From contig NZ_CP101156.1 in the NCBI RefSeq assembly GCF_024298845.1, positions 3,286,001 through 3,350,000 of the forward strand: 64,000 nt of DNA, written 5' to 3'. Shown piece by piece: positions 15,884 through 63,903 of this stretch (within the stretch, counting starts at the first letter, position 1; each line of letters opens with the position of its first letter). Origin of the DNA: Natronosalvus amylolyticus (lineage in GTDB: Archaea > Halobacteriota > Halobacteria > Halobacteriales > Natrialbaceae). Below the pieces are notes generated by a model. The model was not told the origin of the DNA. It did not search any database and worked only from the letters and a program-made list of their open reading frames with translations. The position numbers and the translations under genes were made by a program.

Positions 15884-15969
15884 CTATAGTAGCCAGTGAA
15901 ACGATTGACACACCTACCGCGACGCCAGCTTGCGAGAGGGTGTGCAATGACTTTCACTGGCTACTATAG
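15884..15969. repeat. 86-bp palindromic repeat, copy A
   Basis: Both ends match as an 18-bp perfect inverted repeat (CTATAGTAGCCAGTGAAA and its complement). An inner stem (about 15913-15920 with 15929-15936) has two mismatched pairs in this copy. It lies between the small membrane protein gene and the HD gene. Copies B, C and D are at 22707, 51289 and 63629, all exactly 86 bp. Confidence 0.92.
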
Positions 15970-20773: not shown

Positions 20774-21394
20774 TCACTCAGAACGTTGAATGCCGTCTTC
20801 ACGGCCACGGAAACCGATCGTTGCCGGATCGAAGTAATATTTCGATTCACAGATGTCACAGGTCGCCGTCAACTGTTGGCCGTGCTGGTGGAGTTTCCAG
20901 AGTTTCGTTTGCCCCTGCGTAATGTCAAGCGTAACCGGATGGCCGCAGTCCGGAATCGTACAGGGGAATCGAATGTACCAGTTCGGTACCGACATCGCTC
21001 CCAACGGCGCCAACTCGCCACGGAGCCGACAGAGCAGATTAAAGATAGTAAACGATGGGTTCTCTCGGTCGATTTTGACGCCCTCAACGTCGCTAACGAA
21101 ACCGCCGCGCAGATCCTCGGTCTCGTACAGCGGCAACACCGGAATCCCCTTCGCGAGCGCGTAGCCGATCTCCTGGTTGATCCACCGGCTTCCGGCCGAA
21201 CGGTTCGTCAGGACGGCAACCACTATGTCGCTGTTAGCGAGCCGACCCTCGAGTCGTTTTCGCGACCGACCGGAGCCGACCTCCTCGAGCACGATATGCA
21301 CGCCGAATGGAAAATTCTTGACCGTGGAGAACAGTTCCTGTACGAGCTCCAGATCAGAAGGGGCGTGTGAGACGAATACCTGTTCTCCGGTCAT
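20774..21394 (-). CDS. TIR-domain protein with C-terminal zinc ribbon
   Basis: 206 residues. A TIR fold fills about 4-110: VFVSHAPSD opening strand, SDIVVAVLTNRS, then W71INQE75, where Glu75 is the position of the catalytic glutamate in NAD-cleaving TIR domains, followed by IPVLPLYE. The C-terminal third carries Cys145, Cys150, Cys179 and Cys182, a zinc-ribbon pattern. Known prokaryotic TIR proteins are often NADases in antiphage systems such as Thoeris, but no ThsA-like partner or other defence gene is nearby, so the role is open. ATG at 21394. Confidence 0.82.
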   Translation of the reverse strand: MTGEQVFVSHAPSDLELVQELFSTVKNFPFGVHIVLEEVGSGRSRKRLEGRLANSDIVVAVLTNRSAGSRWINQEIGYALAKGIPVLPLYETEDLRGGFVSDVEGVKIDRENPSFTIFNLLCRLRGELAPLGAMSVPNWYIRFPCTIPDCGHPVTLDITQGQTKLWKLHQHGQQLTATCDICESKYYFDPATIGFRGREDGIQRSE

Positions 21395-22476: not shown

Positions 22477-22861
22477 ATCTGAACCGGGGTGTCGTGGCTA
22501 CTAAATGCTTTGTGCAACGGCGGTTTTGCACCGCCTCGAGCGACTCCTCAGAGCGGCGGCGTTTGATTCCCATAAACTCTCTAATATTATTTAAATAGCA
22601 AATTACTCTTATATCAATAGTAAAGGAACCACCCACTTCAGAGCCACCGTTTCCGAGGTCCAGAACGTGTGAGGGGTGTAAAAGCCACTCGAAGCCGTCG
22701 GAGTCGATACTGTAGCCAGTGAAACGATTGACACGCCTATCGCGACGCCGTCTTGCGATAGGGTGTGCGATGTCTTTCACTAGCTAGTATAGATTCTCGA
22801 ATGTACCGAGACACGTACAACCTGATCAAAACACGTCGTGGCACCGGGCCACGATGAGCGG
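22477..22861. other. Gene-free interval between tpiA and the MBF1 gene
   Basis: 385 bp without a credible gene. It holds an AT-rich stretch at about 22578-22630 (TATTATTTAAATAG), unusual for this genome and a possible tpiA promoter with a long leader, and palindrome copy B at 22707-22792. Confidence 0.6.
22707..22792. repeat. 86-bp palindromic repeat, copy B
   Basis: Same orientation as copy A. The outer arms are partly decayed at both ends, but the inner stem CCTATCGC / GCGATAGG is perfect. The loop reads GACGCCGTCTT. Confidence 0.88.
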
Positions 22862-50599: not shown

Positions 50600-51283
50600 A
50601 TGGGAACCCCGCTCGAGGACCGAACGGCGCAGGCGACCGAAGTTATCGAACGACTCGAACACGAGTATCCGGATTCGACGATTTCGCTTCGGTACTCGAA
50701 CCGCCTCGAGTTGCTGATCGCGGTGATGCTCTCGGCACAGTGTACGGACGAGCGCGTCAATGCCGAGACCGAACAGCTGTTCGAAACCTACCGGACGCCC
50801 GAGGACTACGCCAACGCGCCACAGGAAGAACTCGCCGAGGCGTTGAACTCGATCACGTACTACAACAACAAAGCGAAGTACATCCGCAGTGCGTGTCAGA
50901 CGATCGTCGACGAACACGACGGCGAGGTGCCGGACACGATGGACGAACTGACCGCGCTCTCGGGCGTGGGGCGAAAGACGGCGAACGTCGTGCTCCAACA
51001 CGGGCACGATATCGTCGAGGGAATCGTCGTCGATACGCACGTCCAGCGACTCACTCGACGACTCGGACTGACTGAAGAGAACTACCCGGAGCAGATCGAG
51101 CAGGATCTGCTCTCGGTGATTCCCGGATCGGCATGGCAGCAGTTTACCCACCTTTGTATCGACCACGGCCGTGCCGTCTGTTCGGCCCGCTCTGCAGACT
51201 GTGAATCCTGTGTTCTCGCCGACATCTGCCCCTCAGAAAAGGGCGATAGCGACATTGATCTGGCCTCCGGTGAACCCTGGTAA
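50600..51283 (+). CDS. nth: Endonuclease III, DNA glycosylase/AP lyase
   Basis: 227 residues. Helix-hairpin-helix LSGVGRKTANVV with catalytic Lys126, and Asp145 in VVDTHVQR. The 4Fe-4S cluster loop has Cys194, Cys201, Cys204 and Cys210 with C-X6-C-X2-C-X5-C spacing. It removes oxidised pyrimidines. Its TAA is only five bases before palindrome copy C, which may act as its terminator. Confidence 0.95.
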   Translation: MGTPLEDRTAQATEVIERLEHEYPDSTISLRYSNRLELLIAVMLSAQCTDERVNAETEQLFETYRTPEDYANAPQEELAEALNSITYYNNKAKYIRSACQTIVDEHDGEVPDTMDELTALSGVGRKTANVVLQHGHDIVEGIVVDTHVQRLTRRLGLTEENYPEQIEQDLLSVIPGSAWQQFTHLCIDHGRAVCSARSADCESCVLADICPSEKGDSDIDLASGEPW

Positions 51284-51288
51284 CGACA

Positions 51289-51374
51289 CTATAGTAGCCA
51301 GTGAAAGTCATTGCACACCCTATCGCTTGACTTCGTCGTGATAGGTGTGTACATCGTTCCACTGGCTACTATAT
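51289..51374. repeat. 86-bp palindromic repeat, copy C
   Basis: Opposite orientation to copies A and B. Five bases after the nth stop codon. Outer arms nearly perfect; one outer base differs at the right end. The inner stem has one non-standard pair. Confidence 0.92.
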
Positions 51375-52351: not shown

Positions 52352-53500
52352 ATGACCATGGAATTCACCGATCGCGTTTCCCGCGTTGAACCGTCCGCAA
52401 CCCTGACCATCTCGGCGCTCGCCACCGAACTCGAGGCCGACGGCGTCGACGTCGTCGACCTCAGCGTCGGCGAACCGGATTTCCCAACCCCACAGAACAT
52501 CATCGATGCCGGCCAGCAGGCCATGGACGATGGCTACACCGGCTACACGACCCCCGCGGGTCACCTCGAGCTTCGAGAGGCGATCAGCGAGAAACTCGCC
52601 GCTGACGGCCTCGAGCACGGCCCCGACGAAATTATCGTCACGCCAGGGGCGAAACAGTCCCTCTACGAAATCATTCAGGCGCTCATTCAGGATGGCGACG
52701 AAGTCGTCCTCCTCGACCCCGCCTGGGTCTCCTACGAAGCGATGGTCAAGATGGCTGGCGGTGACCTCACACGAGTCGACCTCTCCGCCACCGACTTCCA
52801 GCTCGAACCCGCGCTCGAGGACCTCGCTGGAGCCGTCTCCGACGACACCGAACTCCTGATCGTCAACTCGCCGTCGAACCCCACCGGCGCGGTGTACTCG
52901 GATGCCGCACTCGAGGGCGTTCGCGACCTGGCCGTCGAACACGACATCACCGTCATCTCTGATGAGATTTACAAGGAGATTACCTACGGCGTCGAACCGA
53001 CCAGTCTGGGCACTCTCGAGGGGATGGCCGACCGGACGGTGACGGTCAACGGCTTCTCGAAAGCCTACTCGATGACGGGCTGGCGCTTGGGCTACTTCGC
53101 CGGGCCGAAAGATCTGATCGATCAGGCGGGCAAACTCCACAGCCACTCGGTGTCCTCGGCGACGAACTTCGTCCAGATGGCCGGTATCGAAGCCCTCGAA
53201 AACACCGACGAGGCCGTCGCGGAGATGGTCGACGCGTTCGAAGCACGTCGCGATAGCATCGTCGACCTGTTGGCGGAACACGACGTCGACGTCGCCGTCC
53301 CCGAAGGGGCGTTCTACATGATGCTCCCAGTCGATGCCGACGACCAGGCCTGGTGTGAGGGAGCCATCGAGGACGCCCACGTCGCGACGGTACCGGGAAG
53401 CGCGTTCGGCACGCCCGGCTACGCTCGTATTTCGTATGCAGCTAGCGAAGAGCGGCTCCGAGAAGGCATCAACCGGCTCGTTGCCGAAGGCTACCTCTAG
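52352..53500 (+). CDS. Class I aminotransferase (aspartate/alanine-type)
   Basis: 382 residues from ATG at 52352; another at 52358 is equally possible. PLP Lys237 in NGFSKAYSMTGWRLGY, NSPSNPTGA (172-180) and SDEIYKE (203-209). DLSVGEPDFPTPQ near the start is typical of aspartate aminotransferase subgroup I. Convergent with ribL across a very strong hairpin. Confidence 0.92.
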   Translation: MTMEFTDRVSRVEPSATLTISALATELEADGVDVVDLSVGEPDFPTPQNIIDAGQQAMDDGYTGYTTPAGHLELREAISEKLAADGLEHGPDEIIVTPGAKQSLYEIIQALIQDGDEVVLLDPAWVSYEAMVKMAGGDLTRVDLSATDFQLEPALEDLAGAVSDDTELLIVNSPSNPTGAVYSDAALEGVRDLAVEHDITVISDEIYKEITYGVEPTSLGTLEGMADRTVTVNGFSKAYSMTGWRLGYFAGPKDLIDQAGKLHSHSVSSATNFVQMAGIEALENTDEAVAEMVDAFEARRDSIVDLLAEHDVDVAVPEGAFYMMLPVDADDQAWCEGAIEDAHVATVPGSAFGTPGYARISYAASEERLREGINRLVAEGYL

Positions 53501-53503
53501 TCC

Positions 53504-53576
53504 CTTCCCAAACGTCGACGAATGCGTGAAACCGGACAACAGCAATCGGTTTCACGCATTCGTTCAGGTTTGGGAA
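53504..53576. terminator. 73-bp inverted repeat between convergent genes
   Basis: Outer arms CTTCCCAAAC / GTTTGGGAAG (10 bp) and inner arms ACGAATGCGTGAAACCG / complement (17 bp) are perfect, separated only by an unpaired GTCG/TCAG bulge, with a 12-base loop. It begins three bases past the aminotransferase stop and ends 46 bp before the ribL stop. A bidirectional terminator is the simple reading; a mobile palindrome is possible. Confidence 0.7.
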
Positions 53577-53622
53577 GCCACTAGTACCCTTTTGTGCTGT
53601 GTGGTAAACCGGCCAGCCCCCA

Positions 53623-63363: not shown

Positions 63364-63903
63364 AGGCGGCCGGAACAACGGACCCGTATATATACCGGCT
63401 GTGGTCGTGTGCTTCCCACACACCCGATTTCACCGTAGGCGGCCCGAAAAAGTCGGTATCGGGTCCCTACGGACTTACGGGCCAACGGGTGCTTCGATCC
63501 GGACCTCGGTGTGTCCGCCGATTTCGAACCCCCTGAACTCGAGTGCGTTGGCTTATTACCTTCGAGTTCACTCGACCAGTTGGCCTCGAGTACGTTGGCG
63601 CTTCACCCTCGACGGGGTTCGACCTCTTGTATAGTAGCCAGTGGAAGTCATTGTACACCCTCTCACAAGACGGCGTCGTGAGAGGTGTGTACATCGTTTC
63701 ACTGGCTACTATAGTATCGCTTGAAGGTCGCGATGGAACTGATCGCCGTCAGCGGGATTTGTCACTGTGTGCCGCTCAGCGACGAACCAATCCGTCGTTG
63801 CTCAGGAAGCGACGACAACGAACGTTCATACGGTTTCCGTCGTTTTACCGATGATTGCCCGTAGCGGGGCGACAATCACCGAAAAAGGGTACAGCATACC
63901 GTA
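63364..63903. other. Gene-free interval with palindrome copy D
   Basis: 540 bp between the TlpA-like gene and the partial gene at the window end. Apart from palindrome copy D (63629-63714) I find no gene, promoter or repeat that I can support. Confidence 0.6.
63629..63714. repeat. 86-bp palindromic repeat, copy D
   Basis: Same orientation as copy C. The inner stem CTCTCAC / GTGAGAG is perfect but differs from copy B at two paired positions, so both sides changed together. Outer arms nearly perfect. Confidence 0.92.

Follow-up and report, generated by a model that had tools for sequence, protein, structure and literature searches.

The four 86-bp palindromes that recur in a 64,000-nucleotide stretch of the Natronosalvus amylolyticus genome (the window, in what follows) appear to be copies of a non-autonomous DNA transposon, a MITE, probably mobilised in trans by an IS630/Tc1-mariner transposase, a reading to which we assign a probability of roughly 70%. 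The mobility of the family and its TA target can be read directly from filled and empty sites, and the identity of the mobiliser as IS630, which rests on comparison of sequences, is likely rather than proven. The family is dispersed and multicopy, and its presence and absence differ between relatives, with ~119 copies here, none in two congeners and bursts elsewhere, as is expected of a MITE. A unit of ~80 bp that carries no gene inserts at TA, mostly within CTAG, with duplication of the TA, and since the unit encodes no transposase, the enzyme would have to act in trans. Its likely source would be a haloarchaeal IS630/Tc1-mariner insertion sequence (IS) of ~1.06 kb with similar ends, both of which present the same boundary and target as the MITE and, in part, the same subterminal sequence.

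The window copies lie at 15884-15969 and 22707-22792 on the forward strand and at 51289-51374 and 63629-63714 on the reverse strand, two in each orientation as the first-pass annotation had stated, and its description of them as gapless, palindromic and intergenic holds up well: the coordinates are right, the length is exactly 86 bp in each case and the mean column identity is 91%. In the copy at 15884 the 80-bp unit occupies 15887-15966 between TA dinucleotides at 15885-15886 and 15967-15968, and the outer C and G complete the CTAG target; the ends of the copy at 22707 are partly decayed (ATACTG...), and the copy at 51289 begins 6 bp downstream of a gene for endonuclease III (50600-51283, forward strand). 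Single-strand folding gave z scores of -9.0, -4.0, -6.6 and -8.2, respectively, which no dinucleotide shuffle reached. The 18-bp outer arms that had been described are complementary at 18/18 positions in the first copy and at ~13-16/18 in the other three, and the second stem comprises ~12 pairs around the 11-base loop. These arms constitute terminal inverted repeats, perfect in fresh copies, with GTAG/CTAC at the base of the stem.

Flanking genes identified with Pfam encode an HD-domain protein and PurL beside the first copy, TpiA and an HTH protein beside the second and endonuclease III beside the third, in agreement with a coding scan of the flanks. Around all 119 genome copies, coding-like 90-bp scan segments make up 11% of those adjoining the element versus ~57% of those farther off, and segments on the element itself never reached the coding score, as befits a short sequence with no coding capacity. 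Near the second copy, a reverse-strand frame at 20774-21394 encodes a small TIR-domain protein (TIR_2 and ThsB_TIR matches) that is possibly a Thoeris-like defence component.

The genome-wide search that the first-pass annotation had proposed, carried out with a covariance model built from 19 copies, recovered ~119 distinct copies: of those in this 4.2-Mb genome, the chromosome (3.5-Mb contig) has 104 and a 417-kb replicon the other 15. The density of about one copy per 16 kb noted earlier is correct within the window, whereas the genome-wide average is ~1 per 35 kb. Exactly 86 bp is the length of 88 copies, the others measuring 76-90 bp; copies diverge from the consensus by a mean of ~10.6 bases, and each of the 86-bp copies differs from every other. 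The same model matched 110 of the 292 genomes sampled from the class, and copy numbers in relatives range from 0, as in the two congeners G001 and G007, to >70. Many named haloarchaeal plasmids also have copies, among them plasmids of Natrinema, Natrialba magadii, Haloterrigena turkmenica, Haloarcula hispanica and Halomicrobium mukohataei, and most of the matches overlie no annotated gene in the plasmid records checked; a search of phage records for the element found none. Longer versions with enlarged loops occur in relatives, at ~125 bp in one genome (G013) and at 127, 171 and 289 bp in Natronococcus, Natronorubrum bangense and Natrialba magadii. The enlarged loops of three such loci (L330, on Natrialba magadii pNMAG01, L331 and L332) hold GGTTCGGAGCGAGC...GAACCGC palindromes, with tandem repeats in L330. 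Apparent tandem copies in another genome (G026; L095, L096, L097) proved to be artefacts of scaffold joining, in which one N separates two identical repeats.

Equal length with diverged sequence had been ascribed either to constraint or to copying as a unit, and the evidence favours the latter. A manual count over four occupied orthologous copies in the closest relative gave ~11 differences in 340 element bases versus 8 in 248 flank bases, and at other orthologous sites in that closest species the element has been lost or replaced. Since the element changes at orthologous sites at much the same pace as the sequence around it, and since versions of ~125-289 bp exist in relatives, we attribute the equal length to copying of a mobile unit, one that leaves clean empty sites, and not to constraint.

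No direct target duplication is found beyond the 86-bp block, because the terminal bases of the block are themselves the target, as the empty sites reveal. The empty site of the copy at C1:3474359 reads CTCGAG-TTAG-CTTC in a relative (G004); a site that is empty in Natrinema zhouii (ATATCTAGCGGGG) is filled in Haloarcula hispanica pHH400 (ATATC-TA[80 bp]TA-GCGGGG); and one that is empty in the TuA4 plasmid (GGGCTGGGTCCCC) is filled in N. pallidum (GGGC-TA[80 bp]TA-GGTCCCC). All three pairs fit a net gain of 82 bp, that is, 80 bp plus TA, and from them it follows that a unit of ~80 bp (TAGTAGCCASTGAAA...TTTCASTGGCTACTA) inserts at TA, with a strong preference for CTAG, and duplicates the TA. 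In one of the three pairs the empty site reads CTGG, which we ascribe to later substitution. Several other orthologous sites in G004 were considered as empty sites and set aside, being replaced or deleted and hence uninformative on target duplication.

Several genome copies occupy the CTAG that borders another palindromic repeat, and this CTAG is intact in the unoccupied copies of that repeat. The second repeat, CTAGTCCCTTCCCAAACGTCGAC...GGTTTGGGAAGCCACTAG, is ~88 bp long with CTAG on its flanks and is present in the window at 53497-53584; other copies lie near C1:481334, C1:3127744, C1:1286 and C1:897322, and the 86-bp element sits inside its CTAG edge at C5:89309, C1:1286697 and C1:3174388. 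A third palindromic repeat (ACCGTCGGACAG...CTGTCCGACGGT, ~76 bp) adjoins four copies of the 86-bp element, at C1:1634487, C1:1820458, C1:3495343 and C1:518473, and at C1:1820458 it interrupts the right end of the element.

The full-length transposon sharing the ends of the palindromes that the first-pass annotation had suggested looking for was found in part: what IS630-family elements have in common with the palindromes is the CTATAGTA boundary, CTAG as the target and some of the next ~22 bp, but the likeness does not extend to the whole sequence. In relatives these elements measure ~1.06 kb, end in CTATAGTAGnCnTTAGAAnTAATTGCTCAC and CTATAGTAACCGTTAGAACTTT... and are sited at CTAG targets, and the same ends and target recur in 80 loci from many haloarchaeal genera. 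The protein is split over two overlapping frames, both halves of which match the IS630 transposase model (NF033545, DDE_3). The terminal seven bases, TATAGTA, are identical between MITE and IS ends, and over the 22 columns that follow, MITE arms match IS ends at a mean of 11.1 positions on the left and 13.4 on the right, against 5.4-5.8 +/- 2.0 for shuffled arms. A C precedes the TA in 122 of 147 IS ends and in 107 of 176 MITE ends. The left MITE arm shows no preference for the transposase-side end of the IS over the other end (11.1 versus 12.1), so that a simple origin of the MITE from a left end plus a right end is only half supported. These ISs (L185-L189, L193, L196, L206-L285) resemble the MITE in boundary, target, TA duplication and part of the subterminal 22 bp, and differ from it in their size, in their two-frame transposase, in the lack of an 18-bp perfect palindrome and in an unrelated interior. 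In one genome (G032; L185, L196) two IS630 copies have inserted at a CTAG inside the 86-bp element. Among other candidate partners, a locus taken for a solo end of a longer element (L175) carries only a degenerate right end, and the ends of the DDE_Tnp_1 (IS4/IS5-type) loci of the N. amylolyticus genome do not match. Searches of the genomes, of 167 kb of the TuA4 plasmid and of a 99-kb part of pNMAG02 turned up no IS whose ends match closely, the two plasmids showed no longer partner of the element, and no IS630 was confirmed in viral contigs.

The only copy of this IS630 found in N. amylolyticus (L164) is truncated and carries an in-frame stop; as the MITE copies are also diverged, the family is probably dormant here. 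Recent transposition is shown elsewhere by sets of identical copies in three relatives (G228, G218 and G142), nearly all of them at C-TA[..]TA-G. In G218, which like G228 is a complete or near-complete genome, PF13358 (DDE_3) has no match, nor has it any in the copy-rich G062, G076, G172 and G026; in G228 the match is a fragment only. The arms in fresh bursts differ between lineages and yet are perfectly complementary (CAACTG/CAGTTG, CTCTTG/CAAGAG, CCACTG/CAGTGG). Across 25 sequences, arm and inner-stem changes on both sides occupy 34 cells versus 12.3 in shuffled sets, a count above all shuffles. Kinship alone can beat shuffles without structure, but the counts in slid controls are likewise well below the observed one. 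The covariation exceeds what recognition of the ends alone would need.

Fresh identical copies in genomes that lack an IS630 gene, together with the compensated changes in arms and inner stem across lineages, are what would be expected of a MITE or of a repeat like the small mobile repeats (SMRs) of Haloquadratum, which have no known mobiliser (PMC3119063), if it were moved by some other CTAG-targeting transposase, perhaps one that recognises a hairpin, its likeness to IS630 being either convergent or a matter of a few terminal bases. We regard this as possible but unlikely, given that these IS630 elements have exactly the same target, with TA duplication in CTAG, that subterminal similarity to IS630 lies well above shuffles in both arms, and that IS630 may once have been present and since lost, or may be brought in by transient plasmids. 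The complementary burst arms, the covariation and the burst genomes without IS630 leave room, more specifically, for a haloarchaea-wide mobile repeat whose spread does not depend on a standard IS630 transposase in its own cell and relies instead on a transposase or pathway able to recognise the folded double hairpin. Such a mobiliser, if real, would account for both the compensated burst arms and the missing IS630 genes, but we consider it distinctly doubtful.

The hairpin shape, the many copies and the GTAG/CTAC at the stem base also recall REP/RAYT-like or IS200/IS605-derived elements (PATEs), which are moved by Y1 transposases acting through single-stranded hairpins and are known from haloarchaea (PMC3119063). 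This derivation is very improbable here: Y1 transposition would not be expected to yield the TA duplication that is seen, and PATEs by definition lack the true terminal inverted repeats present in this family. The genome holds just two Y1 genes, both ordinary IS200/IS605 TnpA genes beside TnpB, and neither has the 86-bp element on both sides, so that membership of the REP/RAYT class, whose mark is a Y1 RAYT transposase gene lying between copies of the repeat, was rejected. Equally improbable is a conserved functional element under selection, such as a structured RNA, a terminator or a protein-binding site, which would fit the strong folding, the covariation and the intergenic placement (a bias also predicted by selection against gene disruption) but for the absence of any match to a curated RNA family in Rfam, the four orthologous copies that change like their flanks while at other sites the sister species has lost the element or carries other sequence in its place, the patchiness within the genus and the bursts of identical copies.

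With the IS630-mobilised MITE as the preferred reading, a repeat family that carries no annotation in the plasmid records checked, and yet is present in studied strains such as those of Haloarcula hispanica and Natrialba magadii, gains a likely mobiliser and, in the TA of CTAG, a rule for its target. Its fresh identical bursts and empty sites provide ready evolutionary markers, and a possible test is offered for the Haloquadratum small mobile repeats reported without a mobiliser.

An open-access literature search, incomplete in its coverage, found no description of the 86-bp family, which is a new family of MITEs and thus a genomic parasite of an already familiar kind; in the literature it stands closest to RUP, Nezha and the SMRs of Haloquadratum. 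RUP of Streptococcus pneumoniae is a 107-bp repeat linked to IS630-Spn1 (PMC3049150). Compared by description, both are short non-coding repeats in many copies, with terminal repeats that resemble an IS630-family element, a supposed movement in trans and a location near other mobile elements. RUP has a different host domain and, going by description, a different sequence; the 86-bp family also differs in that the matching IS630 is often missing where copies are fresh and in that its arms carry compensated changes between lineages. The Nezha MITE of cyanobacteria, for which an ISNpu3-like assignment has been proposed via shared terminal repeats (cited in PMC3049150), is likewise a MITE tied to an IS by its terminal repeats, a comparison made through that proposed assignment. 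Closest in host are SMR-A and SMR-B of Haloquadratum walsbyi, which are 80-110 bp long, have prominent inverted repeats, occur in up to tens of copies and often lie within other mobile elements, with no known mobiliser; for the MITEs as well as the SMRs of Haloquadratum, a working transposase has similarly been noted as absent (PMC3119063). The 86-bp family resembles the SMRs in its haloarchaeal host, its size and its prominent inverted repeats. SMRs, however, reportedly insert without duplicating their target and end in sequences that bear no relation to any transposon (PMC3119063), and by that description the duplicated TA and the IS630-like ends place the 86-bp family outside the published definition of SMRs.
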